Positions 3,736-61,543 of a stretch of 64,000 nt of DNA are shown here, piece by piece. The first letter of the stretch is position 1. Every line of letters begins with the position of its first letter. Position numbers and translations under genes: made by a program. Below the pieces are notes generated by a model that worked only from the letters and a program-made list of their open reading frames with translations, had not been told where the DNA came from and did no database searches. The DNA is taken from the NCBI GenBank assembly GCA_024103275.1, contig JAGFIV010000041.1:62001-126000 (forward strand), given 5' to 3'. Source of the stretch: Flavobacteriales bacterium. Lineage in GTDB: Bacteria > Bacteroidota > Bacteroidia > Flavobacteriales_F > PHOS-HE28.

Positions 3736-5370
3736 TTACCGCCTCCCCTTCGGCATGGCCGGCGGCGGTGCCTTCTTCAGCTGTCCGTTCTCGTACTCGA
3801 TGCGGGAAACCTCTTGCCCGCGGCTGTTGTACCGCACCAGGGGCCCGTGGAGGCGGCCTTCGCGGTAGTTCATTTCCTGCGCCACCCGGCCCCGCTGGTC
3901 GTACACGGTGCACTTGCCGTGGGGCGTGCCATTGAGGAACATTTGCTCGCGCACCTTCACGCCCTTCTCGTAGTAGGTCCATTGCCCGGTGGGCGCTCCT
4001 TTGGCGTACATGCCCTCGCTCAACAGCACGCCCTTGTCGTTGTATTCCTGCCAGCGCCCGCTGCGCAGCCCGTCGGTGAAGGCGCCCACCTCCTGCAGGT
4101 GGCCGTTCTCGTACCAGCTTTTCCACGGGCCGTTCTTCATGTTGTCTTTCCACGTGGCCAGGTAGCGCTCGTTGCCGTTGGGCAGCCAGCCTTGCCAAAT
4201 GCCGTCCATCTGGCCCCCCTTGTAGGCTCCCTTGTCCTTTTGCCGCCCGTTTTCGTACCAGCTTTCCCACATGCCCTCCTCCTTGCCGCCCGCATAGTTG
4301 CCTTCCTGCAACTTCTGCCCGCCCTCGAACCAGGTGGTCCACAGGCCGTCCTTCGCGCCCTCCTTCCATTGGCCCCGCTTCCAGTTCTGCCCGCCGTCGT
4401 AGTAGTACACCCACTCACCCTCCTGCTTGCCGCCGCGGTACAGGCCGGTGGCGCTCAGCTGGCCATTGGGGTACCAGAATTTCCACAGGCCGTCCTGCTG
4501 GCCCGCCTTGAAGTTGCCCAGCATGTCCCGCGCGCCGCTGGCGGTGTACCACGTCCAGGTGCTGTCCTTCGCGCCGTGGGCGAAGAAGCCGGAAACCTTC
4601 ACCTGGCCCGAGGGGAAATAGCTCGTGAAGGACCCGTGCAGCTTGCCCTTGTCCCAGGTTTCCATGGTCTCCGGGGCATTCGCGGAGGTCCAGTAGGCCC
4701 AGGGCCCGTCCTTCACGCCCCCGACCCAGTTGCCTTTTGCCTTCAGGTTGCCGGCGGGCCAGTATTCGCGTTGCTCGCCGCTCAGCACCCCCAGGTGGTA
4801 GCGGCTTGTAGTGGCGGTATCGCCGGAAGGGTAGTAGGTGCGGATGAAGCCCTCCCCCTTCACCAAGGTGCGGGTGCTGTCGCGGTCCCAGGCATCCAGG
4901 CTCAAGCAATCGCCCTTGTCGCAGAGCTCGGCGAGCATCTTCCTGCCGTCGGCATAGAAGTAGTTCCACGGCCCTTGCTTGGCACCCTTGGCGTAGCTGC
5001 CTTCCTCCATCAGCTGGCCGTTGCGGTAGTAGCTGCGCATCAGGCTGTCCTGTTTGCCCTTGCGGATCCAGCCGTCGTGCTGCACCTGCCCGTTGTCGTA
5101 GAAGATCACCACGTGGCCGTCGCGTTCGCCGCTCTTGAAATCGGCCACCTCGGTGGGCCGCCCTTGCCGATCCCAGAATTTCCATTCGCCCCACTCGCGG
5201 CCGTTCACCATCAGCCCCTCGCTTTTCTTCACCGTCTTCAGGCTGTCCCAGTGGTCCACGTAGGGAAGCACGGTTTGGGCCATGGCGGCGTGTGCCAGCA
5301 ACAGGAAGGCGGCTGCCGGAAGGGCGTTGCGGAGGTGGCTGCAGTGGCTGCGGAAAGGCGTTGGGGGCAT
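3736..5370 (-). CDS. exported MORN/YwqK-repeat protein
   Basis: The 544-residue protein has a signal peptide (ALPAAAFLLLAHAAMA followed by Q). It then consists almost entirely of degenerate repeats of about 22 residues with the pattern G-x-W-x-Y/F-W-x-x-G-x-x...EG-x-Y, roughly twenty copies to the C-terminus. Such MORN/YwqK modules form long beta-hairpin solenoids; YwqK is named as an antitoxin in Bacillus, but in Bacteroidota these proteins are mostly exported and of unknown role. No toxin partner is visible beside it. The start at 5370 gives the signal peptide directly and follows an exact TActTTTG box by 5 bases. No C-terminal T9SS domain is seen. Confidence 0.85.
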   Translation of the reverse strand: MPPTPFRSHCSHLRNALPAAAFLLLAHAAMAQTVLPYVDHWDSLKTVKKSEGLMVNGREWGEWKFWDRQGRPTEVADFKSGERDGHVVIFYDNGQVQHDGWIRKGKQDSLMRSYYRNGQLMEEGSYAKGAKQGPWNYFYADGRKMLAELCDKGDCLSLDAWDRDSTRTLVKGEGFIRTYYPSGDTATTSRYHLGVLSGEQREYWPAGNLKAKGNWVGGVKDGPWAYWTSANAPETMETWDKGKLHGSFTSYFPSGQVKVSGFFAHGAKDSTWTWYTASGARDMLGNFKAGQQDGLWKFWYPNGQLSATGLYRGGKQEGEWVYYYDGGQNWKRGQWKEGAKDGLWTTWFEGGQKLQEGNYAGGKEEGMWESWYENGRQKDKGAYKGGQMDGIWQGWLPNGNERYLATWKDNMKNGPWKSWYENGHLQEVGAFTDGLRSGRWQEYNDKGVLLSEGMYAKGAPTGQWTYYEKGVKVREQMFLNGTPHGKCTVYDQRGRVAQEMNYREGRLHGPLVRYNSRGQEVSRIEYENGQLKKAPPPAMPKGRR

Positions 5371-5375
5371 GTGGC

Positions 5376-5383
5376 CAAAAGTA
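5376..5383 (-). promoter_or_regulatory. TActTTTG -7 box for the MORN-repeat gene
   Basis: Exact TAnnTTTG on the minus strand, ending 5 bases before the ATG at 5370. This implies a leaderless or nearly leaderless transcript. Confidence 0.6.
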
Positions 5384-5540
5384 GGGATGCCTGGTGCACC
5401 CATGCGGTTGTGGAACGCAGGACGGCGCCGCTTGGTACGGCCCGGTCCCCGATTGCCGCCCGTTGGGCCATGATGCCCAGGGTGTCCGCCATTCCATGAT
5501 TTACCGCACATTTTTCCCGGGGTTGCGTATACCTTGCGGC

Positions 5541-7496
5541 ATGGTGCGCATGAAGTTGGGGATGCCGCGGAAGCTGCGCGTGTTCGCCGGGCTTGTGGCC
5601 CTGGTGTTGCTGCTGGCCGGGTGGACGGCGGCCACCACGCCGGTAAAAGGCCCGCACAGCCCGCTGGAGCTGGCCTTCATGCGCGAGCAGATCTCGGGCC
5701 TGGAGGTGCAGTTCGGCACCTATTTCGTCACTGCGGGCCGCTGCGCGGGCTGCCATGGGCACGACCCCAACGGGGTGACGATGATCGCCGGCGACGGGGA
5801 GGATGTGAACGTGGTGGACGACTGGCGGAGCACCATGATGGCCAATGCGGCCAACGACCCCTTCTTCCTGTCCAAGATGCAGCATGAGGGCCTGGTGAAC
5901 CCGCAGATCAAGGAGCAGATCGAGCATGGCTGCCTGAAGTGCCATGCCCCGCTGGCCGTGTTCGAGCAGCAGATGCTGGGCAACCCGCCGTTCACCGCGG
6001 CCAGCCTGGACACCAGCGTGTTCGCCCGCGACGGCGTTTCCTGCCTGGCCTGCCACATGCAGAACCCGGCCTCGGGCGGCCATGTGTTCTCCGGCAACCT
6101 GGTGTTCGACAGTGCGCGCGTGTGGGGCCCTTACACCGACGAGCAGATCAACCCGGCGATCATGCAGTACTTCGTAAACTACACGCCGGACCAGGGCTCG
6201 AACATCCTGGACGGCAGCGTGTGCGCCGGATGCCACACGGCCATCAATCACCCAGTGGACCTGGAGGGCAACCCCACGGGCACGTCGTTCTATGAGCAGA
6301 CGCTGTGGCAGGAGTACAAGAACTCGGTGTACTACGGCACGGAGCAGAACTGCCGCAGCTGCCACATGCCGCGCATCCAGGACTCGGTGAAGCTGGCCTC
6401 GGAGTACATCTACCTGCCGGGGCAGTCGCCCTTTGGCAAGCACCACCTCACCGGCGGCGGGGTGTTCATGCTGAAGATGATGAAGGACCACATCGGCGGG
6501 TTCGGCCTGCCCGCCACCCCGGCCCAGTTCGACAGCACCATAGCGCGCAGCCTCGCCCTGCGGAAGACCTCCATGACCATGGCGTTGCAGACCGTGGACC
6601 GCACGGACGACACTTTGTTCGTGGACGTGGCCCTCACCAACCTTACAGGCCACAAGTTCCCCGGCGGATTCCCCAACCGGAGGGCCTTTGTGCAGGTGCT
6701 GGCCATCGGCGCCATGGGCGATACGCTCTTCAACAGCGGCAGCTGGGACGGCACCTATGAGGTGGTGGGCAACGACCTGCCCTATGAACCGCACCACGAC
6801 GTGATCACACAGGAGGGCCAGGCACAGATCTATGAATTCGTGATGGGCGACGTGAACCATGATGTCACCACCACGCTGCTGCGCGCCGTACACCGCCTGA
6901 AGGACAACCGCTTGGTGCCCGTGGGCTACAGCCTTTCGCACCCCAGCCAGGACACCACGGCCGTGGCGGGACTGGCCCTCACGGATCCCGATTTCAACCG
7001 CGATGCCGACGGGGTGGAGGGCACGGGCGGCGATATCGTGCACTACCACATCCCGCTGGGCGGGCATGGCGGCGCGGTGGAGGTGAAGGCCCGCGTGTGG
7101 TTCCAGCAGGTGCCGCCGCGCTGGAACGATGAGATGTTCGGCTTCCACGGCGCGCGCATCGACAGCTTCCGCACCATGTATTTCAATGCGGACAACACGC
7201 CGGAGCTGGTGATGGCGGACTCCACCGTCGTGCTGGGCACCGGCGTGGGCGTGGCCGGCGGCGGCGTGGTGCGCATCTTCCCCAACCCCACACGGGACGG
7301 CGTGGTGCATGTGCCATCGCCGGATGCAAGGTGGATCAAGGCCTACGATGCGGCGGGTAAGCAGGTGCCTTTGGTGACGCAGCGGAATGCCGCGGGCTGG
7401 CGCTGCATCCTGCCGATGACGCCGGGCGTGTACCACTTGGTGGTGGGCACCTCGCACGGGGAGCAGTTGGTGCGTGTGGTGCGGACCGGGGAATGA
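5541..7496 (+). CDS. pentaheme c-type cytochrome with T9SS C-terminal sorting domain
   Basis: The 651-residue protein starts with a basic stretch and a hydrophobic signal helix (VFAGLVALVLLLAGWTAATT). Five CxxCH heme sites begin at C68, C131, C168, C228 and C271, the layout of cytochrome c554-like multiheme proteins. A beta-rich region follows (about 340-570). The last 75 residues, starting VVRIFPNPTRDGVV, fit a T9SS type A sorting domain. It would therefore cross the inner membrane by Sec, acquire hemes in the periplasm and be moved to the cell surface by SprA-dependent secretion. The electron donor and acceptor are unknown. The start could also be the ATG at 5550; upstream in-frame starts give no better signal peptide. 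Confidence 0.88.
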   Translation: MVRMKLGMPRKLRVFAGLVALVLLLAGWTAATTPVKGPHSPLELAFMREQISGLEVQFGTYFVTAGRCAGCHGHDPNGVTMIAGDGEDVNVVDDWRSTMMANAANDPFFLSKMQHEGLVNPQIKEQIEHGCLKCHAPLAVFEQQMLGNPPFTAASLDTSVFARDGVSCLACHMQNPASGGHVFSGNLVFDSARVWGPYTDEQINPAIMQYFVNYTPDQGSNILDGSVCAGCHTAINHPVDLEGNPTGTSFYEQTLWQEYKNSVYYGTEQNCRSCHMPRIQDSVKLASEYIYLPGQSPFGKHHLTGGGVFMLKMMKDHIGGFGLPATPAQFDSTIARSLALRKTSMTMALQTVDRTDDTLFVDVALTNLTGHKFPGGFPNRRAFVQVLAIGAMGDTLFNSGSWDGTYEVVGNDLPYEPHHDVITQEGQAQIYEFVMGDVNHDVTTTLLRAVHRLKDNRLVPVGYSLSHPSQDTTAVAGLALTDPDFNRDADGVEGTGGDIVHYHIPLGGHGGAVEVKARVWFQQVPPRWNDEMFGFHGARIDSFRTMYFNADNTPELVMADSTVVLGTGVGVAGGGVVRIFPNPTRDGVVHVPSPDARWIKAYDAAGKQVPLVTQRNAAGWRCILPMTPGVYHLVVGTSHGEQLVRVVRTGE

Positions 7497-7620: not shown

Positions 7621-7893
7621 ATGAACGAAAGATTCCCGGCATCGGTGAAGGCGGTCCTGTGGTCGTATGATGTGGACAAGCTCGATCTGCAGGCCCATAA
7701 GTCGCACATCATCACAAACGTGCTGAACCTCGGCACCCATGATGCGGTGTCTTGGCTGTTCGCGACCTATTCCCGGGATGAGATCGCTGCCCAGGTGGAG
7801 CATCCAAGACCGGGTGAATGGAACCGGAAGTCATTGAACTATTGGGCACTGGTGTTCGGGCTGGAACCCAAGGTCACAGCGCGGTTCGCATGA
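7621..7893 (+). CDS. DUF6922-type protein, putative antitoxin of an AbiEii-like pair
   Basis: The 90-residue protein contains the DUF6922-like pattern: SYDVDKLDLQAHKSHIITNVLNLG, then a W-LFATYSRDEI segment and SLNYWALVFGLEP. In Bacteroidota, small proteins of this type commonly sit directly upstream of AbiEii/AbiGii nucleotidyltransferase toxins. Here the stop codon overlaps the start of such a gene (ATGA at 7890-7893), as expected for a translationally coupled antitoxin-toxin pair. This ORF is intact although the toxin gene is destroyed. The antitoxin role is inferred from context, not from a known motif. Confidence 0.7.
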   Translation: MNERFPASVKAVLWSYDVDKLDLQAHKSHIITNVLNLGTHDAVSWLFATYSRDEIAAQVEHPRPGEWNRKSLNYWALVFGLEPKVTARFA

Positions 7894-8392
7894 TCCATTG
7901 GTCCGTGCTGGATAACGAGCGGCAAGCGGCCTTGCCGCGATTGCGGTTTGCGCAGGCACAGCACTTCTACTTGGCGGGCGGAACCGCCTCTCCCAACGCA
8001 GGGTCTCCGCCTCGGGACCCTGCGGTTCCTCGGCCTCAATTCAGTGCTGAAGCCCAGGTGACGCAGGGTCCCTTTCAGGAGACCCTGCGCGAGGGGAGGG
8101 GAAGTTGGCCGATGTGGCCGACATCGGATGCATGAAGTTGTCCGACATCACAGGGCGTGCGGCCATGAAGGACTATGTGGACCTTTACTTCATCCTGCAA
8201 CGCATCCCGCTGGAGAAGTTGTTGGAACCATGCAGCCGTAAGCTGCCCCGATTGGATCGCACGCTGATCTTGAAGTCGTTGGTTTTCTTTGACGACCTGA
8301 TTCCGGAGCCCATTCTGTTTGCCCCAGGGCAGCAGGTGACATTTGACCGCGTGAAAACCTACCTGCGCGATCAGGCCAAGCGTGCATCTTGA
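7890..8392 (+). pseudogene. AbiEii/AbiGii-type nucleotidyltransferase toxin, central core replaced by a palindromic repeat
   Basis: Two ends of one AbiEii-like gene are recognisable. The first 33 codons read MIHWSVLDNERQAALPRLRF then AQAQHFYLAGGTA, ending inside the nucleotidyltransferase GGTA motif. The C-terminal part resumes near 8102 in a different frame with LADVADIGCMKLSDITGRAA, then MKDYVDLYFILQR, and ends at a TGA at 8390-8392. The roughly 110 residues expected between them, including the HR-x-S-x-D-x-D catalytic part, are absent. In their place is a ~108-base copy of the repeat found around the transposase at 11.5-12.0 kb. The toxin cannot be functional. The last bases overlap the putative TTG start of the MOSC gene. 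Confidence 0.85.
7991..8098. repeat. REP-like palindromic element, unit A (inside the toxin gene)
   Basis: Outer inverted repeats CGCAGGGTCTCC (7997-8008) and GGAGACCCTGCG (8078-8089) bound the unit. The left arm folds with GACCCTGCG at 8016-8024, and the right arm pairs CGCAGGGTC (8062-8070) with GACCCTGCG (8081-8089), giving two adjacent hairpins. Ends and hairpins match units B, D and F near the RAYT gene; the middle is more diverged. Confidence 0.88.
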
Positions 8393-9219
8393 TCCTTCCC
8401 CGCCCGCGTTCGGCAAAGCCTGGCATATCCACGACGCTCGCCTCCATCCACATTCATCCCGTGAAATCACTCGGTGGTTTCGCCGTGCAGCAAGTACGGC
8501 TTACGGACCGCGGCCTGGAGCACGACCGCCGCTGGATGCTCGTGGACCCGCAAGGCAGTTTTCTCTCACAGCGCGAATGCCCTGAAATGGCCTGCCTGCA
8601 CACCGCACCGGCAGCCGCTGGATTCACCGTCACCGATGTGCGGAACGGATCGGTGCTGCACCTGCCGTGGGAGTTGGAAAGCGGCCCGTCCGTTCACGCG
8701 CAGATGTGGAACGATGCCGTGGACCTACTGCTCGCGGATCACGGGGTGAACGGCTGGTACAGCGAGGCCCTGCAACGGCCGGTGCGGCTGGCCTTCATGC
8801 CGCAGCGCACCGTGCGCATCACCGACCGCACCTACGCCGAAGTGCGGGTGGCCCTCAACGATGCATTCCCGGCCTTGGTCATCTCCCAAGCCTCGCTCGA
8901 TGACCTCAATGCCCGCCTGTCCACGCCGGTACCGATGGAACGTTTCCGCCCCAACCTGGTGATCGCCGGCGGCGCGGCCTTTCAGGAGGATACATGGCGG
9001 ACGGTCCGGATCGGGCCCGTGCGCTTCCACCTGGTGAAGCCTTGTGCGCGTTGCGTCATCCCCAACACGGACCAACGTACCGGCGTACGCTTGAAGGAAC
9101 CGTTGCGCACCTTGGCGAGCTACCGCACCGTGGGCAACAAGGTGCTTTTCGGGATGAATGCGACTTTTGATGCACCCGGACCGCTGCACGTCGGTGATCC
9201 GGTGACGTACGACGGATGA
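8389..9219 (+). CDS. MOSC-domain protein with N-terminal MOSC beta-barrel
   Basis: The protein (276 residues from the TTG start) contains ASIHIHPVKSLGG and LEHDRRWMLVDPQGSFLSQRE, the N-terminal barrel signature of the MOSC/YcbX group. It also has FRPNLVIAGGAAF and the conserved KPCARCVIPNTDQRTG with the sulfur-carrying cysteine region. MOSC proteins take sulfur or molybdenum cofactor as substrate; YcbX-like members reduce N-hydroxylated compounds using bound Moco. It lies about 5 kb from a molybdenum formate dehydrogenase, but no shared transcript is indicated. No ATG precedes the first conserved motif, so a TTG overlapping the pseudogene stop is the likeliest start; this is the weakest point of the call. 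Confidence 0.88.
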   Translation: MILPRPRSAKPGISTTLASIHIHPVKSLGGFAVQQVRLTDRGLEHDRRWMLVDPQGSFLSQRECPEMACLHTAPAAAGFTVTDVRNGSVLHLPWELESGPSVHAQMWNDAVDLLLADHGVNGWYSEALQRPVRLAFMPQRTVRITDRTYAEVRVALNDAFPALVISQASLDDLNARLSTPVPMERFRPNLVIAGGAAFQEDTWRTVRIGPVRFHLVKPCARCVIPNTDQRTGVRLKEPLRTLASYRTVGNKVLFGMNATFDAPGPLHVGDPVTYDG

Positions 9220-10031: not shown

Positions 10032-11018
10032 TCACTTCGCCGCTGCCGGTTGCCAATGTTCCACCTTGTTCACCACGGGCTTCAGGGCGTGCAGGTAGTC
10101 GTAGATCGCGCCGAGGTCCTGCTCGGTCATGCCGCCGTACATGGTCCAAGGCATCACCGTTTGGAAATCCCCTGCCTTCCAGTCCACCGCAGTGGGCACG
10201 TAGCTGCTGTCCGCGAACTGCCTGAACTTCCGGATGAAGGTGGCGCGGTCCCATGAGCCGATTCCGGTCTCCTTGTCCGGGGTGATGTTGGCAGAGCGCA
10301 CGATGGCACCGTTTGGGAACTGGAACTCAAAGCCGCCTGCGAAGGGCTCGCCCACGGCCTTCCCGTTTTCCATCTTCGTATGGCATTCACGGCAACCGGC
10401 CGCATTGACCATATAGGCACCATAGCCGGGGTCCGTTGGCGCGGGCAGTGCCATGGGTTGTGCCGGCTCCGGGATGGTGTGCATGATCACGTTCATGGGG
10501 AAGTCGGCCTCGGAGGCTTCCGGATGGCTCTCGATGGACGGCAGGCTGCGCAGGTAGATGATCAGGCTGTACACGTCCTCGGGGGTCAATTTGTTGTAGT
10601 ACGGGTAGGGCATCACCGGGAAGAACGGCTGGCCATCCTTGCCGATGCCGCTGGTGATGGCGCGGTACAGTTGGCCGTCACTCCAAGTGCCGAGGTTGAA
10701 GGGGGTAAGGTTTTTCGAGACGAACCGCCCGGGGAAATTCATCGCCTGGTCGAACACTTCGCCGCCCTTGCCCAGGGTACCCGGTTCGATGGGGGCGGAG
10801 AACTTGCTCCAGTCGCGCGTGCTGTGGCAGTCCATGCAGACCGTCACATGGTTGGCCAGATAGTGCCCCCTGGCCACGCGGGCCGGCGTGGCCTCCACCC
10901 GCAGGTCCTTCGGCACCGGGATGTCGGGCATGGCCTGGGTCACGTAGGTAATGCCGGCCACCGCCACCAAGGCAATCGCGGCCACCGCGATCAAAAGGAA
11001 TTTGAGCAGCTTACGCAT
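10032..11018 (-). CDS. diheme c-type cytochrome, membrane-anchored or periplasmic
   Basis: The 328-residue protein starts with MRKLLKFLLIAVAAIALVAV, an uncleaved anchor or signal peptide. Two cytochrome c domains follow: CMDCH at C61 and CRECH at C209. Each has downstream Met-containing segments (PVMPYPYYNKLTPEDV and VMPWTMYGGMTEQD) that could supply the sixth ligand. This is the general layout of the diheme cytochromes that serve alcohol or sugar dehydrogenases, or donate to oxidases. No dehydrogenase gene is adjacent, so the partner is unknown. On the + strand beyond its start lies a promoter reading away from it. Confidence 0.9.
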   Translation of the reverse strand: MRKLLKFLLIAVAAIALVAVAGITYVTQAMPDIPVPKDLRVEATPARVARGHYLANHVTVCMDCHSTRDWSKFSAPIEPGTLGKGGEVFDQAMNFPGRFVSKNLTPFNLGTWSDGQLYRAITSGIGKDGQPFFPVMPYPYYNKLTPEDVYSLIIYLRSLPSIESHPEASEADFPMNVIMHTIPEPAQPMALPAPTDPGYGAYMVNAAGCRECHTKMENGKAVGEPFAGGFEFQFPNGAIVRSANITPDKETGIGSWDRATFIRKFRQFADSSYVPTAVDWKAGDFQTVMPWTMYGGMTEQDLGAIYDYLHALKPVVNKVEHWQPAAAK

Positions 11019-11486: not shown

Positions 11487-12050
11487 CTACCCCAGCACGT
11501 CATGGTAATGCGTGAGCGGCGCAGGGCCGGAATCGCCCTGCAGGTAGAACCCCATGCTGGAATGGGGATAGTCGATGGCGTTTTCCGCCAAGGACCACTT
11601 TCCCGAAACGGGGTTGGCGTGGATGTAGTCCAGCTTTTGTTCCAGCATCCGCCGATCAAGGCATTCGCGGATGTCGGTAGAGGTCTCGAAAACCCGATGG
11701 AGCTGGCCTCGCGCGGCATCTCCCTTGCGCACGGCCGTGCGTAGCCTGAGCAATGTACCCGACCGGCCGGCCGCCTTCAATCGGGTTACGATTTCATAAG
11801 CGAGGAACCGCTTGGCGTTCCCCAACAGTGCGTTGATACCTGCACCTTCCGGTGCGTGGATCAACAGGTGGACATGGTTTGGCATGATGACATAGCCCAT
11901 AATCCGGAAGCCCTTGTTGTGCGCCAGATGCATCCAGGTGTAGATGTGGTCATGGCAGGCGGTCTGTTCGATCAACGGCAGCCATCTATAGCACGTGAAC
12001 GTGCAGAAGAAGATGGCGCCATCGGTGTGTTGCGCCCTGCGGACCGCCAT
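11487..12050 (-). CDS. REP-associated tyrosine transposase (RAYT, Y1_Tnp/IS200-like fold)
   Basis: The 187-residue protein has the single-strand DNA transposase (HUH) core: GAIFFCTFTCYRWLPL near the start, then MPNHVHLL with the metal-binding His pair H59 and H61. A candidate nucleophilic Tyr (Y142) lies in QKLDYIHANPVSGKW, and the C-terminus has YPHSSMGFY. This matches Bacteroidota RAYT proteins. RAYTs nick and join single-stranded REP hairpins and are thought to spread REP sequences. Matching palindromic repeats lie directly on both sides (C at 11419, D at 12087). The start at 12050 is chosen because codons further upstream translate the repeat itself. Confidence 0.92.
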   Translation of the reverse strand: MAVRRAQHTDGAIFFCTFTCYRWLPLIEQTACHDHIYTWMHLAHNKGFRIMGYVIMPNHVHLLIHAPEGAGINALLGNAKRFLAYEIVTRLKAAGRSGTLLRLRTAVRKGDAARGQLHRVFETSTDIRECLDRRMLEQKLDYIHANPVSGKWSLAENAIDYPHSSMGFYLQGDSGPAPLTHYHDVLG

Positions 12051-12086
12051 TGCGACAAGGTAAGCAGAAAGATTTCGTTCTTGTTT

Positions 12087-12220
12087 TCCCCACGCAGGGT
12101 CTCCGCCCCTCCCCCAGTGATTCCAACGCACTTATGCGGAACCCTGCGATTCACACAAGAGTCTTTCGCGTTCTTATCGGGGGCGCAGGGTCCCTTGCAG
12201 GAGACCCTGCGCGAGGGTGG
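12087..12220. repeat. REP-like palindromic element, unit D (full), 5' of the RAYT gene
   Basis: Arms CGCAGGGTCTCC (12093-12104) and GGAGACCCTGCG (12200-12211); the inner right hairpin GCGCAGGGTC / GACCCTGCGC is perfect. It resembles B and F but with about 15 percent differences by eye. Its right edge (GAGGGTGG) abuts the truncated copy of the small basic gene. Confidence 0.88.
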
Positions 12221-32331: not shown

Positions 32332-32388
32332 TAGGGCCGCTTGGCACCGGGTCGGGGGCCGGGCCTTACGCGCGTATCGCTTCGCGGC

Positions 32389-32396
32389 TACTTTTG
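32389..32396 (+). promoter_or_regulatory. TActTTTG -7 box of the act-cox operon
   Basis: Exact TAnnTTTG, 43 bases before the actA ATG at 32440. The only -33-like sequence nearby is TTACG, so activation by a regulator may be needed. Confidence 0.58.
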
Positions 32397-32439
32397 CCCG
32401 GCGCGGATGGGTTGCCCGCCGCCCACTAAATCGTTTGGA

Positions 32440-33762
32440 ATGTCCCTTGTTTACAGGCTATTAAACCGGCCGTCCAGGTTATTCGGGGCGGCTGCGATCT
32501 TTACATTCCTGTTGATCGGCACCGCTGCCCACGCCCAGGTGGACGAGGCGGAATACGGGGCCGGCGAGAAACTCTTCAAGGCCAACTGCGGCAGTTGCCA
32601 CAAGCCGGACAAGGACATGACGGGCCCCGCCGTGGCCGGTGCCAAGGAGCGGTGGGACGGCAAGGGCGATGTGCATGCCTGGATCAAGGACAGCCAAGGC
32701 TACATCAAGAGCGGCAACGCCCACGCCAAGCAGCTTTTCGAGGACCACAACAAGATCGTGATGCCGCCGCAGCCATTGACGGATGCGGAGATCGACCAGG
32801 TGCTTTACTACGCCGACAACTTCGCCACGGTCAACGCCAAGAAGGCCCCGGCCAAGGAGGCCCCGGCGGCGGGCACCGCCGAACCGGCCGTGACCTGGCC
32901 CTGGTGGCTGGTCATCGGCGCACTGTTCTGGATCGTGCTCTTCTCCCTGGGCGGGGTGCGCAAGCAGCTCGCCAATGCCGTGCGCGAGAAGCAGGGCCTT
33001 CCTCCCGAGAAGGACCTGAACACCTGGGGCCGCATCCGCCGCTGGGCCTCGCGCAACAAGGGCTGGGCCTCCGTGGTGGTACTGCTTTTCGTGGTGTGGA
33101 TGACGGTGCTGCTTTGGAACTGGATGTTCAACATCGGGGTGTACGGCGGTGAGAAGAATGCGCATTACAAGCCCAGCCAGCCCATCGCCTTCGACCACAG
33201 CCTGCACGCGGGCAAGGACAACCTGGCCATCAACTGCCAATACTGCCACAGCGGGGCCTCCAAGAGCCGCCATGCGGGCATCCCCAGTGCCAACGTGTGC
33301 ATGAACTGCCACCAGGCCATCAGCGAGGGGCCCAAGACGGGCACGGAGGAGATTGCCAAGATCTATGCCGCTGTGGGTTGGGACCCGGGGACGATGAAGT
33401 ATTCCGGTGAGCAGAAGCCCATCAAGTGGAACAAGGTGCACAACCTGCCGGACCATGTGTATTTCAACCACTCGCAGCACGTGGCGGTGGCCAAGCTGGA
33501 ATGCCAGCAGTGCCACGGCCCCGTGGATACCGAGATGGACCAGGTGCAGCAATGGAGCCCGTTGACCATGCGGTGGTGCCTGGACTGCCACAACACCACG
33601 GAGGTGAAGGTGGCCGGCTCGGACAACGGCTATTACCAGGAGGTTCACCGCCGCTTGACCGAGACCCCGATGGGCCGGCGGGAATTGAAGAAGTATTTGG
33701 AGGACGAGAAGATCACCGTTCGTGAGCTTGGCGGGTTCGAGTGCGCCAAGTGCCATTATTAA
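32440..33762 (+). CDS. actA: Alternative Complex III subunit ActA, hexaheme cytochrome c
   Basis: ActA carries hemes that pass electrons from quinol oxidation to the oxidase. The 440-residue protein has a signal peptide, then an N-terminal monoheme domain (CGSCH at C50). Two membrane segments follow (about 153-172 and 209-233), then a periplasmic multiheme domain with CxxCH at C266, C287, C355, C380 and C435. The pentaheme part is the usual ActA core; the N-terminal monoheme domain is an addition that could act as the mobile exit domain to CuA. It is the first of eight genes with gaps under 40 bases. The ATG at 32440 gives a normal signal peptide. Confidence 0.93.
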   Translation: MSLVYRLLNRPSRLFGAAAIFTFLLIGTAAHAQVDEAEYGAGEKLFKANCGSCHKPDKDMTGPAVAGAKERWDGKGDVHAWIKDSQGYIKSGNAHAKQLFEDHNKIVMPPQPLTDAEIDQVLYYADNFATVNAKKAPAKEAPAAGTAEPAVTWPWWLVIGALFWIVLFSLGGVRKQLANAVREKQGLPPEKDLNTWGRIRRWASRNKGWASVVVLLFVVWMTVLLWNWMFNIGVYGGEKNAHYKPSQPIAFDHSLHAGKDNLAINCQYCHSGASKSRHAGIPSANVCMNCHQAISEGPKTGTEEIAKIYAAVGWDPGTMKYSGEQKPIKWNKVHNLPDHVYFNHSQHVAVAKLECQQCHGPVDTEMDQVQQWSPLTMRWCLDCHNTTEVKVAGSDNGYYQEVHRRLTETPMGRRELKKYLEDEKITVRELGGFECAKCHY

Positions 33763-33782
33763 GATCCATCAGCCACAGACAG

Positions 33783-36700: not shown

Positions 36701-37043
36701 GGACGAGCTGGGCCGCATGGTGCTCAACCCCGACGTGGTGGTGCGCAGCCGCGGGGTGATGGAAAAGTGTACGCTGTGTGTGCAGCGTATCCAGGAAGGC
36801 AAGCTGGAGGCCAAGAAACAGGGCCGCCCGGTGAAGGACGGCGACATTCAGACGGCCTGCTCGGCCGCATGCGGCTACGGAGCCATCGTGTTCGGTGACC
36901 TCAACGACGCGGGCAGCCAGGTACGCAGCGGGCGTGACAATCCGCGCGGCTACGAGATGCTCGAGGAGATCGGCACGCAGCCAAACGTCAATTACCTCGT
37001 GAAGGTGCGCAACAGTTCGGAGGGAGATAACCACCAAGCCTAA
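33783..37043 (+). CDS. actB: Alternative Complex III subunit ActB, molybdoenzyme-like iron-sulfur protein
   Basis: The 1086-residue protein fuses a molybdopterin-oxidoreductase-like domain, in this family without cofactor, to a four-cluster ferredoxin domain. A twin-arginine signal (SRRDFLKFLGFS, R50-R51) runs into a lipobox-like LAAC (C69). The cluster ligands are CIGCGACITAC (about 833), CQHCNHAPCETVCP (about 907), CIGTRYCANNCPYK (about 939), CTLC (about 996) and CSAAC (about 1026). It transfers electrons from the quinol site in ActC to the ActA hemes. It lies 20 bases after actA and 17 before actC. Confidence 0.95.
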   Translation: MSSTKRYWQDLSELEPASTPVKTAAEEFNEPMPLDQVLADGGIAGSTTSRRDFLKFLGFSVGAAALAACEAPVIKSIPYVNKPEEITPGVANWYASTYYDGEDFASVLVKTREGRPIHVQGNPRFGVNRNPATGRSAVNARINSSVLSLYDSERLAGPMEVTDGNPSQRSWEQADKAIGDALAKASAAGKRIVLLTGTVISPSIQEAIKVFKAKHGLNISTGDPAVSATVGGAVDHVQYDPVSYAGIASANLKTYGKWAFPSYDLTKADVVVGIGADFLSNWGSTTENTWQYTSRRRPEDATTARPMSRHWQFEARMSMTGANADRRVAVRPSQIPQVVLALHDAVASATGNSGAGKGQLPEGIAAAAAQCAKELLAAKGKSVVMCGVNEEGIQVLVNSINTMLGNYGSTIDIRNESPFFRGNDAAMAQLVKDLNAGTVGAILIHGTNPAYTLPNAEEFKAGIKKTDLSVCFNSHADETASLCNWITPDHHWLESWGDFNPKAGTFALAQPTISPLFDTRQWGESLLKWSGVGQDWHTFVQTVFKGISTASWDQCLHDGTFPGNAMATEPTAFTADLADAARRATDGVKEGEWEVEVYTTEALASGLHANNPWLQELPDPITKVTWDNYVSISPEDLSTLTGKSFKQLYIGQESPAQVLKVTVNGVAMELPAVMSPGQAPKTISVALGYGRGANGERVGRAACLRNPDGSPAPVGQNAYPWSALRGNTMRYEAYDASVEPTGRTYAIALTQTQMTGMDRGSIVKETTFTVWALNKPEEYNPPHTLAVHEDVNKDGKIDARDQVPATSINLWADHPIEEVGHRWGMSIDLNACIGCGACITACNSENNISVVGKDEVRRSREMHWMRIDRYYTSDTHEDTEGLSWAGKLAAMERPSADPTVIFIPMMCQHCNHAPCETVCPVAATTHSEEGLNMMAYNRCIGTRYCANNCPYKVRRFNWFNYVTEDFGQVNPAWDELGRMVLNPDVVVRSRGVMEKCTLCVQRIQEGKLEAKKQGRPVKDGDIQTACSAACGYGAIVFGDLNDAGSQVRSGRDNPRGYEMLEEIGTQPNVNYLVKVRNSSEGDNHQA

Positions 37044-37060
37044 GCAAGAGAGACCGGCAA

Positions 37061-38455
<1,395 letters not shown>

Positions 38456-38460
38456 TCGGC

Positions 38461-54289: not shown

Positions 54290-57200
54290 ATGAAGCCCGT
54301 CCGGACGACCGTTCCCCTGTTGCGTTGCTTGGCGTTCCTGGTGGTGGCGTGGGCCGCAATGCAGGGGGCGGTGGCCAACTGGCAAACGCCGCCGGCACTT
54401 CCGGTGGACAGCCCGCAGATCCACCTGACCTATCCGATCACCGATCCCCCGGGCACCGGTGACACCAACACGGGGACCATCGACCTGGGCACGCCGGACA
54501 ACGTGACCAACGACGTGATCTACGACCCGGAGACCGGGCAGTACATCCTGCGCAGCCGCATGGGCGAGAACATTGACTACCGGCCACCGCAGAGCATGTC
54601 GTTGGACGAATACATGCAGTACGACATGGAGAAGGCCATGAAGACGTACTGGACGGAGAAAAACCAGGAGGAGACCGAGCGTGCCACCAAGGGACTGATC
54701 CCCAGCATCCAGGTGCGGAGCGAGGCCTTCTGCCGGATCTTCGGGGGGTGCAACATCGACATCCGGCCGCAGGGCAGCGCCGAGGTCACCTTCGGGCTGA
54801 ACACCAGCAAGACCGAGAACCCGCGGATCCCGGTGGACCAGCGGAAGATCACCACGTTCAACTTCGACCAGAAGATCCAGCTGAACCTGGTGGGCAACAT
54901 CGGCACCAAGCTGAAGATCAACACCAGCTACAACACCGAGGCCACCTTTGATTTCGAGAACCAGGTGAAGCTCAACTTCGCGGGAGAGGAGGACGACATC
55001 ATCCAGAAGCTGGAGGCGGGCAACGTGAGCCTGCCGCTCACGGGCCAGCTGATCCAGGGCAGCCAAAGCCTGTTCGGCCTGAAGACGGAGCTGCGCTTCG
55101 GACGCTTGACGGCCACGGCCATCTTCAGCCAGGAAAAGGGAGAGCGCAAGAACATCGCGGTGGCGGGCGGGGCGCAGACCACGAACTTCGAGATCAAGGC
55201 CGACCAGTACGAGGCCAACAAGTATTACTTCCTCAGCAACTACTTCCGGGACAACTACGAGAACGCCTTGCGCACGCTGCCCACGGTGAACAGCGGGGTG
55301 CAGATCACCAAGATCGAGGTGTGGGTGACCAATACCCGGAGCGACTACACGGACAACCGGAACATCGTGGCCTTTACCGACCTGGGCGAGGATGCCGGCC
55401 CGGCCAGCGTGGCCGCCAACCGGGTGAGCGCCAACCTGGTCAACTCGGGCCTGCTGGTGGACGGTCCGGGGGTTGAGGCCTCCAACGCCGCCAACAACCT
55501 GTACAACCTGGTGGCCAACAACGCGGGCATCCGCTCCTTCACGGCGGCTGCGGCGGCGCTGCAGGTGATGGGCATGCAGGCCAGCAGGAACTTCGAGAAG
55601 CTGGAGAGCGCGCGCCGGCTTACGCCCAGCGAGTTCACCCTGAACGAACGGCTGGGCTTCATCGGCCTGAACCAGAACCTGAACAACGATGAGGTGCTGG
55701 CGGTGGCCTACCAATACACCTTCCAGGGCCAGACCTTCCAGGTGGGGGAATTCAGCACCGACGGCATTGCACCGCCCAAGGCGCTGATGGTGCGCCTGCT
55801 GAAGGCCACCATCACCGACCCGCGGCTGCCGCTGTGGGACCTGATGATGAAGAACGTCTATTCCTTGGGCGCCTTCCAGGTCAACGCGCAGGATTTCCGG
55901 CTGGAGCTCCTCTACAACAATCCCACCACGGGGGTGGACCTGAACTACATCCCGCGCAAGCCCATCGACCAGGTGACGCTGCTGCGGGCATTGGGCCTGG
56001 ACCGGATCGACCAGCAGGGCGCGCCCAACTCGGACGGCTGGTTTGACTGGGTGGACAATGCGGCCACCACCGGGGGAACGATCAATTCACAAAACGGCCG
56101 CATCTTCTTCCCGGTGTTGGAACCCTTCGGCAGCTTCCTCAACCGCCAGCTGATCGGGCCCGACCCGAACAGCCCGGTGCAGGACACGCTGGTGCGGCAA
56201 AACATCGTCTTCCAGGCCTTGTACGACAGCACCAAGACGGCGGCGGAGAACATGCCCGAGCTGAACCGGTTCAAGCTCAAGGGCAGCTTCAAGAGCGCGA
56301 GCAGCGATGTGATCAGCCTCAACTCGGTGAACATCCCCCAGGGCTCGGTGAGCGTGACCGCCGGCGGCGTAAGGCTGGTGGAGAACCAGGACTACACGGT
56401 GGACTACAACCTGGGCCGCGTGAAGATCCTCAACCAGGGCATCCTCGAAAGCGGCACGCCCATCAACGTGAGCCTGGAGAGCAACACCCTGTTCAGCATC
56501 CAAACGAAAACGCTGGCCGGGGCACGCTTCGACTACAAGGTGAACAAGGACCTGGTGCTGGGCGGCACGGTGATGAACCTGTATGAACGGCCGCTGACGC
56601 AGAAGGTGAACGTGGGGGACGAGCCCATTGCCAACACCATCCTGGGCCTGGACGCCAACTGGAAGAAGGAAAGCGGGTTGATCACCCGCCTGGTGGACAA
56701 ACTGCCCTTTTACGCCACCAAGGAGACCAGTTCCCTGGATGCGAGCATCGAAGGGGCCTACCTCATCCCGGGACACAGCAAGGCCATCGGCAAGGGCGGC
56801 ACCAGCTACATCGACGACTTCGAGGGCAGCATCAGCAACATCGACATGCGCACCCAGAGCCAATGGTTCCTGGCCGCCACCCCCCAAGGGCAAACAGGGG
56901 ACCTCTTCCCGGAGGGGGAGTACATCAACGACCTGCGCACAGGCTTCAGGCGTGCCCTGCTCTCCTGGTACGTGATCGACCCCCTGTTCTTCAACAACAA
57001 CAGCCTGAAACCGCCCTTGCCCGACGGGTCCGACGCCGACAACCGTTCCCGCGAGGTGCTGGAGAAGGAAGTGTTCCCCAACCGCCAGCTGGCCACCGGC
57101 ACGCCCAGCAACATCCCCGTGCTGGACCTGGCCTATTACCCCAACGAGCGCGGGCCGTACAACTACAACCCCGACCTGGACGACAACGGCGACCTGCCCG

Positions 57201-60200
57201 ACCCGGACCAGAGCTGGGCAGGCATCCAGCGGCGGGTGACCACCACCGACTTCGAGGCCAGCAACATCGAGACGGTGCAGTTCTGGATGATGGACCCCTT
57301 CCACACCTCGGTGAGCAACGACCAGGGGGAGCCGGCGAGCAACGTCGATTCGGAAAACACCTCCGGCGGCGACCTGTACATCAACCTGGGCAACCTGAGC
57401 GAGGATGTGCTGCGCGACAGCCGCAAGAGCTTTGAGAACGGCTTGCCGAAGAGCCCCTCCGACCTGGCGGCCACCACGGACCAGACCGCCTGGGGCGTGG
57501 TGCCCACCACCCAGAGCGTGGTCAATGCGTTCGCCATCACCGACCAGAACACGTACCGCTACCAAGACGTGGGCATGGACGGCCTGGCCAACAACAATGC
57601 CAACGCCTTCCAGGCAGGCCTGAACGAGCAGACCTTCTTCGCCGATTACCTCAATGCGCTGTCGCCCGGGGCGCGTGCCCGCTGGATCAACGACCCCTCG
57701 GGGGACGACTACCACTATTTCCGCGGCGGCGACTACGACAGTCCCCCGCGCTCCATCCTGGACCGCTACAAGCGCTTCAACGGCCTGGAAGGCAACTCCA
57801 TCACCGACGAGGACAGCCCCGAATCGTACCCCACCCAATACACCACCCTGCCCACCTCCGAGGACATCAACCAGGACCAGAACCTGAGCGAGAGCGAGAG
57901 CTACTTCCAATACAGGATCAAGCTCAAGCCTTCCGACATGGTGGTGGGCCGCAACTTCATCACCGACCGTATCCTGGGCCGCAGCCCCGGCGGCAAGGAG
58001 GTGTACTGGTACCAGTTCAAGGTGCCGGTGCGCCAGCCGGAAAAACGGGTCAACGGCATCCAGGACTTCCGCTCCATCCGCTTCATGCGTATGTTCCTCA
58101 AGGGATGGAACCAGCCCGTGGTGCTGCGTTTTGCACGCCTGGACTTCGTGCGCGGCGAATGGCGCAAGTACACCCAGGGCCTGGACACCCCGGGCGAGGT
58201 CATCGGTGGCGACCCCGACCAGACCACCTTCGACGTGGCCGCGGTGAACATTGAGGAGAACGGCAACCGCACACCGATCAACTACGTCCTTCCCCCCGGC
58301 ATCAACCAGGAGACCGACATCGCCAGCGCCAACCTGCGCAGCCTGAACGAGCAATCCTTGAGCCTGAGCACCTGCGGGCTGCGCGACGGCGATGCCCGCG
58401 CCGTGTTCCGCAACGTGAGCCTGGACATCCGCAGCTACAAGAAGCTGCGCATGTACATCCATGCCGAATCCATGGACCCGGACCGCCCGATCACATACGG
58501 GGACGTGAGCGTGTTCATCCGCCTGGGCAACGACTATGCGCAGAACTATTACGAGTACGAGATCCCGGTAAAGCCCTCGGCGTTCTTCAACAGCGACCCG
58601 TACAACGTATGGCCTGAGGACAACAACCTGGTCGTGGAATTCGCCAAGCTGAACGATGTGAAGATCCAGCGGAACCAGGTCGGCCATGCCACCAACCAAC
58701 GGTACACCGTCATGGACGGCGACCGGCGGGTGACGGTGGTGGGCAATCCCAACCTGAGCCTGATGAACACGATCATGATCGGCATCAGGAACCCCAAGCG
58801 CGACGGCGCCGATGCCAACCCCTGGTCGAACCCCGACGATGGCACGGCCAAGTGCGTGGAGGTGTGGGTGAACGAGCTGCGCCTCACCGATTTCGACCAG
58901 CAAGGCGGATGGGCCGCCATCGGGCGGGTGAACACCGCCCTGGCCGACCTGGGCACACTGAGCGTCGCGGGCAACTACAGCACCCCGGGCTGGGGCAGCA
59001 TCGACAAGAAGGTGAGCGAGCGCCAACGGGATACACGCTATGGCATCGACGTGGCCGCCAACTTGGAGATGAGCAAGTTCCTCCCGGAGAAGAGCGGCCT
59101 GAGCGTGCCGATGTACGTGGGCTATTCCGAGGAGGTGATCAAGCCGGAATACGACCCGTTGAACCCGGACATCAAATGGAACGAGTCCACCCGTTCGCTC
59201 ACCCGTGAGGAGAAGAAGCAGCGGATGAAGGAGCTGCGCACCTACACCCGGCGGCGGAGCATCAATTTCACCAATGTGCACAAATCCCGGTCGGAAGGCA
59301 GCAAGAACGAGCACTTCTACGACATTTCGAATTTCGGATTGTCGTATGCTTACAGCGACCAGGAGTTCCACGATGTGAACACCCAATACGAGAACACGCG
59401 CATCTACCGGGGCTCGCTCACCTACCAGCACAACCCGCGGCCCCGGCCGGTGAAGCCCTTCGAGAATGTGGCGTTCATCGGCAAGAGCAAGTGGCTGCGC
59501 CTGGTGAGGGACTTCAACTTCAACCTGGGCTTCAAGCAGATCACCGCGCGCACGGCGATCGACCGCACCTACCTGGAACGCCTGGTCCGCCCCAATCCGG
59601 ACATCGAAAGCCTGCCCCCCACGCCCACCTACAACAAGACCTTCAACTGGACCAACCAGTACGGCTTCCGCTACGAGGTCACGCGGAACCTGAAGGTGGA
59701 CTTCAACGCCAACAACAATTCCATCATCGGCGAACCGCCGGGGCGCGTGAACACCGACGACCGCGACCAGTACCGGATCTGGAAGGACAGCGTGCTCACC
59801 AGCCTGAAGCGTTTCGGGGAGACCACCACCTACGACCACGCGGTGAACTTCACCTACACGCTGCCGCTGGACAAGCTGCCCCTCACCGACTGGATCACCG
59901 CCAATGCCACGTATGGCGCGGGCTACAAGTGGGATCGGGCACCGCTCACGCAGGACAGCATCGGCCACACGATCCAGAATTCGCGCAACATCAACCTCAA
60001 CGGGCAGTTCAACTTCGTGGGCCTGTACAACAAGGTGAAGTACTTCAAGAAGATCAACGACAAGGCGCGCGGCACGCGCACCACCACCGCCCGGAAAGCG
60101 GCGGGCGGCAAGGACCAGGGGAAGGATGCCGACCAAGGGAAGGATGGGAAGACGGGCCCCAAGATCAACCCCCTGGAAGGCCTGGCGCGCCTGCTGATGA

Positions 60201-61543
60201 CCGTGCGCACGGGCACCTTCACGTACAGCCAGACCAGCGGCATCCTGCTACCGGGCTGGGGCAGGGGCGCCAACGTCATCGGCATGGACCAAGGGTTCGG
60301 GGCGCCCGGCTTCGGCTTCCTCCTGGGCGCGCAGAACCAGGACCTGAACGGGAACTACGTGCGGGACTTCGCGTCCGACGCCTCCGCGCGCGGCTGGCTG
60401 GTGCAGACCCCGAGCATCTTCAACCCCTACACCAACACCCGGAACGAGACCATCAATGCGCGGCTTTCCCTGGAACCGTTCAAGAGCATGCGCATCGAGC
60501 TGATGGCCACCCGCACGCAAAGCGAGAACCGCAGCTCCTTCTTCCGGTGGAACGCGAATGAAGGACGGTACGTCAACGACAGCCCGCGCAACTTCGGCAA
60601 CTTCAGCGTCAGCACCATCAATTGGGCCACTACGTTCAGCCGCGACGATGAGAACTTCGTCAGCGACATCTTCAACCGCATGCTCGGCGCCCGCCAGGTG
60701 ATCAGCCAGCGGCTGGGCCAGGCCGACGTGCGCAGCATGCCCACCGACAGCGCCTACTGGCTGGGCTACGGAGGCACCAACCAGCAGGTGGTGGTCGGGG
60801 CCTTCATGGCCGCCTACGGGGGCAAGGACGCCGCGAAGATGAAGCTGGACCCGTTCAAGCAACTGCCCCTGCCGAACTGGGACATCACCTACGATGGGCT
60901 GTCCAGGCTGGAACTGTTCAGGAAATGGTTCCGGACCTTCACCGTGAAGCACAGCTACCGCAGCACCTTCAGCATCGGCAACTACCAGACCAACCTGCTC
61001 TATGAACCCGGCGGCAGCGTGATGGACGCCGGCGGCAACTTCCTGCCCGAGCGGGAGATCACCACGGTGACCATCGCCGAGGTGATGCACCCGTTCATCA
61101 ACTTCGACGCCACGCTGCAGAACAGCCTGCTGGCCAAGTTCGAGTACAACCGCGACCGCAACCTGAGCCTGGGCCTGACCAACTTCCAGGTGACCGAGAT
61201 CCGCGGCAAGGAATACGTGATCGGCAGCGGCTACCGCTTCAAGAAGGTGAAGTTCCCCTTCCAGATCGGTGGCAAGACCCCGCAGAGCGACCTGAACCTG
61301 CGCGTGGACCTGAGCTGGCGGCAGAACAACACCGTGATCCGCAAGATGGAGGAGGGCCAGAACCAGGTGACCGCCGGGCAGGACATCATCTCCATCAAGA
61401 CCAGCGCGGACTATGTGATCGACCAGCGCCTGAACGTGCGCGCCTTCTACGAGCGTGTGGTGAACAAGCCGGTGATCAGCACCTCCTTCCCCAGCAGCAA
61501 CACCAACATCGGGATCAGCCTCCGCTTCACCTTGACCCAATAA
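54290..61543 (+). CDS. sprA: SprA, outer-membrane translocon of the type IX secretion system
   Basis: The 2417-residue protein matches the roughly 2,400-residue SprA (Sov in Porphyromonas), a very large outer-membrane beta barrel. It starts with a signal sequence (LLRCLAFLVVAWAAMQGAVA). Motifs include NYRPPQSMSLDEYMQYDMEKA, EAFCRIFGGCNIDIRPQGSAEVTFG, FDFENQVKLNFAGEEDDIIQ, KAIGKGGTSYIDDFEGSIS, and a C-terminal barrel ending VISTSFPSSNTNIGISLRFTLTQ in two parts. It secretes cargo with C-terminal sorting domains; such cargo is encoded at 5541, 19527, 50387 and 52032. A TTG at 54269 overlapping ruvA is a possible alternative start. Confidence 0.97.
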   Translation: MKPVRTTVPLLRCLAFLVVAWAAMQGAVANWQTPPALPVDSPQIHLTYPITDPPGTGDTNTGTIDLGTPDNVTNDVIYDPETGQYILRSRMGENIDYRPPQSMSLDEYMQYDMEKAMKTYWTEKNQEETERATKGLIPSIQVRSEAFCRIFGGCNIDIRPQGSAEVTFGLNTSKTENPRIPVDQRKITTFNFDQKIQLNLVGNIGTKLKINTSYNTEATFDFENQVKLNFAGEEDDIIQKLEAGNVSLPLTGQLIQGSQSLFGLKTELRFGRLTATAIFSQEKGERKNIAVAGGAQTTNFEIKADQYEANKYYFLSNYFRDNYENALRTLPTVNSGVQITKIEVWVTNTRSDYTDNRNIVAFTDLGEDAGPASVAANRVSANLVNSGLLVDGPGVEASNAANNLYNLVANNAGIRSFTAAAAALQVMGMQASRNFEKLESARRLTPSEFTLNERLGFIGLNQNLNNDEVLAVAYQYTFQGQTFQVGEFSTDGIAPPKALMVRLLKATITDPRLPLWDLMMKNVYSLGAFQVNAQDFRLELLYNNPTTGVDLNYIPRKPIDQVTLLRALGLDRIDQQGAPNSDGWFDWVDNAATTGGTINSQNGRIFFPVLEPFGSFLNRQLIGPDPNSPVQDTLVRQNIVFQALYDSTKTAAENMPELNRFKLKGSFKSASSDVISLNSVNIPQGSVSVTAGGVRLVENQDYTVDYNLGRVKILNQGILESGTPINVSLESNTLFSIQTKTLAGARFDYKVNKDLVLGGTVMNLYERPLTQKVNVGDEPIANTILGLDANWKKESGLITRLVDKLPFYATKETSSLDASIEGAYLIPGHSKAIGKGGTSYIDDFEGSISNIDMRTQSQWFLAATPQGQTGDLFPEGEYINDLRTGFRRALLSWYVIDPLFFNNNSLKPPLPDGSDADNRSREVLEKEVFPNRQLATGTPSNIPVLDLAYYPNERGPYNYNPDLDDNGDLPDPDQSWAGIQRRVTTTDFEASNIETVQFWMMDPFHTSVSNDQGEPASNVDSENTSGGDLYINLGNLSEDVLRDSRKSFENGLPKSPSDLAATTDQTAWGVVPTTQSVVNAFAITDQNTYRYQDVGMDGLANNNANAFQAGLNEQTFFADYLNALSPGARARWINDPSGDDYHYFRGGDYDSPPRSILDRYKRFNGLEGNSITDEDSPESYPTQYTTLPTSEDINQDQNLSESESYFQYRIKLKPSDMVVGRNFITDRILGRSPGGKEVYWYQFKVPVRQPEKRVNGIQDFRSIRFMRMFLKGWNQPVVLRFARLDFVRGEWRKYTQGLDTPGEVIGGDPDQTTFDVAAVNIEENGNRTPINYVLPPGINQETDIASANLRSLNEQSLSLSTCGLRDGDARAVFRNVSLDIRSYKKLRMYIHAESMDPDRPITYGDVSVFIRLGNDYAQNYYEYEIPVKPSAFFNSDPYNVWPEDNNLVVEFAKLNDVKIQRNQVGHATNQRYTVMDGDRRVTVVGNPNLSLMNTIMIGIRNPKRDGADANPWSNPDDGTAKCVEVWVNELRLTDFDQQGGWAAIGRVNTALADLGTLSVAGNYSTPGWGSIDKKVSERQRDTRYGIDVAANLEMSKFLPEKSGLSVPMYVGYSEEVIKPEYDPLNPDIKWNESTRSLTREEKKQRMKELRTYTRRRSINFTNVHKSRSEGSKNEHFYDISNFGLSYAYSDQEFHDVNTQYENTRIYRGSLTYQHNPRPRPVKPFENVAFIGKSKWLRLVRDFNFNLGFKQITARTAIDRTYLERLVRPNPDIESLPPTPTYNKTFNWTNQYGFRYEVTRNLKVDFNANNNSIIGEPPGRVNTDDRDQYRIWKDSVLTSLKRFGETTTYDHAVNFTYTLPLDKLPLTDWITANATYGAGYKWDRAPLTQDSIGHTIQNSRNINLNGQFNFVGLYNKVKYFKKINDKARGTRTTTARKAAGGKDQGKDADQGKDGKTGPKINPLEGLARLLMTVRTGTFTYSQTSGILLPGWGRGANVIGMDQGFGAPGFGFLLGAQNQDLNGNYVRDFASDASARGWLVQTPSIFNPYTNTRNETINARLSLEPFKSMRIELMATRTQSENRSSFFRWNANEGRYVNDSPRNFGNFSVSTINWATTFSRDDENFVSDIFNRMLGARQVISQRLGQADVRSMPTDSAYWLGYGGTNQQVVVGAFMAAYGGKDAAKMKLDPFKQLPLPNWDITYDGLSRLELFRKWFRTFTVKHSYRSTFSIGNYQTNLLYEPGGSVMDAGGNFLPEREITTVTIAEVMHPFINFDATLQNSLLAKFEYNRDRNLSLGLTNFQVTEIRGKEYVIGSGYRFKKVKFPFQIGGKTPQSDLNLRVDLSWRQNNTVIRKMEEGQNQVTAGQDIISIKTSADYVIDQRLNVRAFYERVVNKPVISTSFPSSNTNIGISLRFTLTQ

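Follow-up and report, generated by a model that had tools for sequence, protein, structure and literature searches.

A T9SS-tailed pentaheme cytochrome predicted to reach the cell surface in a Flavobacteriales bacterium

The window analyzed in this study is a stretch of 64,000 nt from a Flavobacteriales bacterium (GCA_024103275.1, contig JAGFIV010000041.1, positions 62,001-126,000, forward strand); all unlabeled coordinates refer to it. A T9SS-tailed five-heme cytochrome of 651 residues, herein called P0001, is encoded at 5541..7496 (+ strand) and was characterized by its sequence, the TIGR04183 profile, a structure model, and fold matching. Delivery of P0001 to the cell surface by the T9SS is judged quite probable; this judgment follows from the profile match of the tail, the sorting-domain fold, the presence of SprA, the modular character of the tail, and a contrast between tail and fusion among the relatives. 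The joint claim, that P0001 is an exported pentaheme of the c552/ExtKL type that exchanges electrons with extracellular substrates at the surface, is considered somewhat better than an even proposition.

What is understood of extracellular electron transfer across the outer membrane of Gram-negative bacteria comes mainly from porin-cytochrome complexes. If the favored reading is true, a T9SS-exported multiheme cytochrome would be a different way to put redox cofactors outside the cell in Bacteroidota, a phylum in which few conduits are known, and SprA would be able to pass a heme-loaded protein. No open paper combining T9SS, multiheme, and cytochrome was found; because most subscription papers lay outside the literature search, this is weak evidence of novelty. 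The question of surface redox chemistry in Bacteroidota is directly testable, since tailed and tailless forms share a core and differ in having a tail versus a fusion.

The gene and its heme core

The reading frame begins with an ATG at 5541, ends with a stop codon at 7494-7496, and is open throughout, so the initial annotation had located the gene correctly. It was also right about the number of heme motifs: exactly five CxxCH sequences are present, starting at residues 68, 131, 168, 228, and 271. All on the + strand, these are heme 1, CAGCH (C68, 5742..5756); heme 2, CLKCH (C131, 5931..5945); heme 3, CLACH (C168, 6042..6056); heme 4, CAGCH (C228, 6222..6236); and heme 5, CRSCH (C271, 6351..6365). 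Across 46 core homologues and six distant ones, the 15 heme-motif positions (C, C, and H of each motif) show no variation in any sequence that has the residue, and the sole exception to CxxCH completeness among the 46 core-family rows is one truncated row. Because of this invariance, the five motifs of P0001 are not a product of chance. The N-terminus is basic and is followed by a hydrophobic stretch at about residues 12-27, with neither a lipobox nor a strong AxA site. This N-terminus is plausible as a Sec signal; the probable signal peptide was placed at residues 1 to about 34 (5541..5642, + strand), and the model features a helix at residues 10-32.

The AlphaFold model of P0001 had a mean pLDDT of 63.7, with residues 411-487 poorly modelled. 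In the fold search, residues 58-564 matched 5ze8, the pentaheme cytochrome c552 of Thermochromatium tepidum, with a Z-score of 17.2 (341 of 385 residues, rmsd 3.9, 22% identity); the next-best match had a Z-score of 8.1. The family profile matched the same structure with an E-value of 3.7e-9. By modelled fold, the heme core is of the pentaheme c552 type, with its five CxxCH motifs and a match to 5ze8 over most of its length. The T. tepidum protein shares with P0001 the five hemes and the fold; it differs in having no T9SS tail, in coming from a purple sulfur bacterium, and in the GHxxP motif of P0001, which is replaced there by PHAMPTGAP. In P0001, a core Ig-like beta domain containing the GHKFPGGFPNRR motif was delimited by the model, the profile alignment, and the fold match (residues 343-565; 6567..7235, + strand).

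The initial annotation had also proposed a comparison with multiheme families. The two models of known families both scored under their cut-offs, and what emerged was a distant likeness to ExtKL. NF040886 (ExtKL/MccSep) matched 19 of 22 family members (best E-value 1.3e-12), all far under the 250-bit cut-off; the score of P0001 was 18.8 bits and that of the best member 47.1. The family profile matched MccSep (9wt8) with an E-value of 0.004. In a HMMER alignment, the selenocysteine of MccSep (U325) falls at F377 of P0001, and every one of the 46 core rows has F, Y, or I at this position. Membership of P0001 in ExtKL was rejected because of the sub-threshold score and the missing selenocysteine; judged by sequence comparison, the heme core is distantly related to Geobacter ExtKL. 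ExtKL has the five-heme architecture seen in the P0001 family (PMC5877670), and the GH..P.G.P motif is common to ExtKL/MccSep and P0001. Unlike ExtKL/MccSep, P0001 has F377 where selenocysteine would stand, lacks an ext cluster, and bears a T9SS tail. Membership in OmcA/MtrC was likewise rejected: the decaheme model gave 21.2 bits (cut-off 209.3), and P0001 has five hemes, not ten.

The C-terminal sorting domain

A T9SS type A sorting domain was assigned to residues 579-651 (7275..7493, + strand) on the basis of TIGR04183 and of fold matches to 8glk_D and the C-terminal domain of PorZ. TIGR04183, the NCBI model for T9SS type A domains, matched residues 579-647 with 23.4 bits against a cut-off of 23; this search had been set as a check beforehand, and the cut-off was passed narrowly. 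The Pfam model PF18962 scored under its own cut-off. By itself, the tail score of P0001 is marginal. It is not marginal once the relatives are counted, because 17 of 22 aligned family members matched TIGR04183 at E ≤ 0.001, the tail of a paralogue in the same genome (L002) scored 40.9 bits, and seven of nine further core-family tails exceeded the cut-off (those below it were L029, 12.9 bits, and L035, 18.1 bits). A tenth tail, from L054 of a distant subfamily, also passed.

The tail was modelled with a pLDDT of 84-92. It matched 8glk_D, the sorting domain of the T9SS substrate NucA as found in a T9SS complex, with a Z-score of 7.9 over 71 of 75 residues, and the sorting domain of PorZ with a Z-score of 7.7; since Z-scores below 8 can reflect a common Ig-like arrangement, the identity of the tail depends first on sequence. 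The family profile matched 8glk_D with an E-value of 0.007.

Substitution rates were compared between P0001 and six close relatives. In the core, dN/dS was 0.12-0.26, and in the tail it was 0.22-0.42 in five pairs and 0.78 in the sixth. Between them lies a 13-residue linker (residues 566-578; 7236..7274, + strand) in which the ratio was near or above 1 in four of the six pairs. From these sequence comparisons, the tail is a separate module: the core is conserved, the linker fast-changing, and the tail constrained.

The export machinery is represented in the window by SprA, the outer-membrane translocon of the T9SS (54479..61534, + strand; profile match of 2535.5 bits), and about 130 tails in the same genome exceed the TIGR04183 cut-off. 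A terminal sorting domain and a SprA-bearing genome are thus common to P0001 and known type A cargo; a multiheme c-type cytochrome cargo was not found in the literature searched. The claim that P0001 bears a T9SS-type tail held up through the TIGR04183 score, the matches of the relatives, and the fold of a solved sorting domain; that the tail addresses it to the surface is well supported by sequence, fold, homologues, and machinery. In the proposed pathway, heme would be attached to P0001 in the periplasm, the protein would be recognized via its type A domain and pass folded through SprA, and it would then remain on, or be released from, the cell surface.

Tailless relatives and a probable cytochrome-barrel fusion

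Homologues were gathered from 25 loci of the genome collection, from the genome of P0001 itself (the paralogue), and from 29 of 395 genomes of the phylum, the genome of P0001 being counted among the 29. The paralogue (L002; G000:C69:33738-35675) is T9SS-tailed, has five hemes, and is 44% identical to P0001; another gene for a T9SS-tailed protein follows it. No relative was found on viral contigs. A tree of 52 sequences was inferred by a quick method with SH-aLRT support only, and the tail label changes three times on it. The tail is retained in all 20 rows of the P0001 clade. Tailless core forms make up one sister clade of 15 (genomes of the Bacteroidota phylum, Deltaproteobacteria, and Phycisphaerae), all of which stop exactly at the end of the core, plus a tandem copy in G302. 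T9SS-like tails also occur in homologues from Calditrichota and KSB1 and in a distant Bacteroidota subfamily (L049, L051, L054), and a further distant group (L052, L053, L055) has lipobox-like N-termini. In the G302 locus (L060:6410-9994), tailed and tailless five-heme genes stand in tandem with no barrel fusion. Homologues were also noted in the archaeon Geoglobus (L026, L027). The L026 copy (L026:7827-9388) is split across several frames, its second CxxCH being interrupted by a stop and its first replaced by CxCH; to judge from these defects it looks broken, i.e., a pseudogene or an assembly error.

The idea that tail presence tracks T9SS presence was refuted: SprA was found in all 28 other homologue-bearing genomes, tailless ones included. 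Loss of the machinery therefore does not account for loss of the tail.

The surroundings of the five-heme gene were inspected in three tailless genomes; in each, it is immediately preceded by a gene for a monoheme class I cytochrome that carries a C-terminal domain about 230 residues long. This domain matched the outer-membrane barrel family PF13557 weakly in seven of nine members and shows a slight strand alternation, exceeding that of shuffled sequences by about 1.5-2.5 s.d.; it is a probable outer-membrane beta-barrel by these sequence features. Across the 29 homologue-bearing genomes, full-length matches to the fusion were found in all 11 with a tailless core, on the same strand as the five-heme gene and adjoining it, and in none of the 11 with a tailed core or the seven with distant homologues only. 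A second sample comprised 245 genomes of the class concerned; 17 had the fusion, and 15 of these fusions lead directly into a five-heme gene, four of the cases being new. The pairing was thereby seen in a total of 15 phylum-mates, and it is kept though the fusions share only 54-75% identity with the query. The counts of fusions and tails are not independent trials, because the tailless, fusion-associated forms are one clade and represent close to one evolutionary transition.

Examples of the two-gene unit, in which the fusion precedes the tailless pentaheme, are L061:5698-8777, L062:5069-7909, and L065:4742-7643, with others at L066-L076 and L086-L089; the C-terminus of the fusion in the unit ends ...LLWDWFDGGFFEGW. 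Distant fusions at 30-32% identity were also seen in L090 and L091, where the flank examined contains no multiheme gene. The unit is possibly an unrecognized electron conduit. No paper on such a pair was met in the open literature searched, in which the pair was not a named query. The fusion partner has the general layout of the fused cytochrome-porin Cyc2, i.e., one heme and an outer-membrane barrel (PMC8406198). This likeness concerns the fusion partner and not P0001; moreover, the partner's cytochrome is of the PF13442 type, its barrel is only weakly PF13557-like, and Cyc2 was not recovered in the searches of this analysis.

Geobacter ExtKL is encoded in a cluster with an outer-membrane porin, ExtI (PMC5877670). 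The tail, the fusion, and the ExtKL-ExtI arrangement together indicate that the pentaheme family is repeatedly accompanied by an outer-membrane partner or a T9SS tail, and the tail and the fusion suggest two ways of placing one redox protein at the outer membrane. A bolder version is offered only tentatively: that one five-heme module has two interchangeable placements, beside a fusion in one clade of the Bacteroidota phylum and by T9SS export in others, with the exported form acting as a surface electron-exchange protein that needs no porin-cytochrome conduit.

Electron supply, alternative roles, and gene neighborhood

A purpose like that of MtrCAB and other porin-cytochrome conduits had been proposed for P0001 in the initial annotation, namely a route of extracellular electron transfer independent of such conduits, and P0001 does contain weak heme-motif matches of the OmcA/MtrC type. 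In contrast to MtrCAB-bearing genomes, that of P0001 (G000) yielded no match to MtrB/PioB. This absence and the tail/fusion contrast agree with the proposal; it is weakened in that export moves a protein, not electrons, and no electron source was found. Because export changes the address and not the wiring, a surface pentaheme can exchange electrons with the cell only by way of mediators, an outside reductant, or an unrecognized carrier. The most likely suppliers of P0001 would be soluble mediators, extracellular reductants, or an unrecognized outer-membrane carrier, and at the surface it may exchange electrons with metal oxides, oxyanions, or redox mediators. No match to a NapC/NirT quinol dehydrogenase was found in the genome either; with neither it nor a conduit, a respiratory role of P0001 is left with no electron supply. 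The fusion was sought elsewhere in the genome as a conduit and rejected, the only match being a 61-residue one of cytochrome type.

The diheme cytochrome that had been suggested as a partner is real. It is a class I cytochrome c with two PF00034 stretches (10032..11018, - strand) and is kept as a neighbor in eight relatives. It is encoded on the strand opposite to P0001, has an N-terminal hydrophobic anchor and no sorting domain, and from its sequence is probably periplasmic and membrane-anchored; as a partner it would be separated from surface-located P0001 by the outer membrane. A cluster at about 32335-38994, the first subunit of which has six CxxCH motifs, is what we take, from sequence features, to be an alternative complex III. 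These genes, together with the absence of MtrB/PioB, lend something to a scheme of full extracellular respiration, in which electrons from the alternative complex III or the diheme cytochrome reach P0001 at the surface and minerals or partner cells are respired with no conduit. This scheme is unlikely: no outer-membrane-spanning electron carrier was identified in the genome, the quinol dehydrogenase is missing, and an isolated surface protein has mediators as its only electron path.

A surface redox enzyme fed by extracellular reductants fits the data as well as an electron-transfer route does. In such an enzyme, a small molecule (an oxyanion, a peroxide, or a nitrogen oxide) would be reduced or detoxified at a heme with an open site, with no respiratory link. 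In the 46 core rows, the only invariant histidines outside the CxxCH motifs are H301, H371, and H418, too few for the invariant residues to make all five hemes bis-histidine (a histidine conserved in 40 of the 46 rows is N221 in P0001); some hemes may instead have a Met ligand or be five-coordinate. Related pentahemes have been classed as potentially catalytic (PMC11976967), and preliminary data link ExtKL to selenite reduction (PMC5877670). However, methionine M208 does not vary in the core family, M100 and M310 hardly vary, and all three could ligate hemes; the chemistry of the MccSep selenocysteine site is not conserved, and the gene context indicates no substrate. As a specific role, the enzyme is possible rather than probable. 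That the tail is vestigial or that P0001 stays in the periplasm as an ordinary electron carrier like T. tepidum c552 is quite unlikely; the marginal tail score of P0001 and the tailless homologues in SprA-bearing genomes would suit it, yet the tail is constrained, flanked by an unconstrained linker on one side and the stop codon on the other, it persists throughout its clade, and that of the paralogue scores strongly. Polymerization of surface P0001 into a cytochrome wire, by analogy with the archaeal filament AvECN, is highly improbable. Proteins like c552 and ExtKL have been related to AvECN (PMC11976967), and Geoglobus, an archaeon, has a homologue; against this, a globular C-terminal tail may hinder stacking, and the Geoglobus copy appears to be defective. 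AvECN was absent among the fold-search matches listed, an absence that does not tell against the analogy. Surface electron exchange by an exported pentaheme remains the favored reading.

The gene neighborhood was compared among 15 Bacteroidota relatives. A divergent MORN_2-repeat protein (3736..5511, - strand; PF07661) is kept in 11 of them, and a VUT transporter near the cytochrome in seven. A MOSC-domain protein (8389..9219, + strand; PF03473/PF03476) is encoded directly downstream of the cytochrome in eight of the 15 and about 1 kb downstream in a ninth (L008). Formate dehydrogenase was rejected as a conserved partner, the matches being at 24-26% identity, in two relatives only, and not orthologous. 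In the window, a DUF6922 gene (7621-7893) and the gene that follows it separate the cytochrome gene from that for the MOSC protein; because the latter two are adjacent in most relatives, the DUF6922 module looks like an insertion, perhaps of the toxin-antitoxin type. A transposase-like gene at 11487-12131 (- strand) resembles the REP-associated (RAYT) kind, as judged by eye only.
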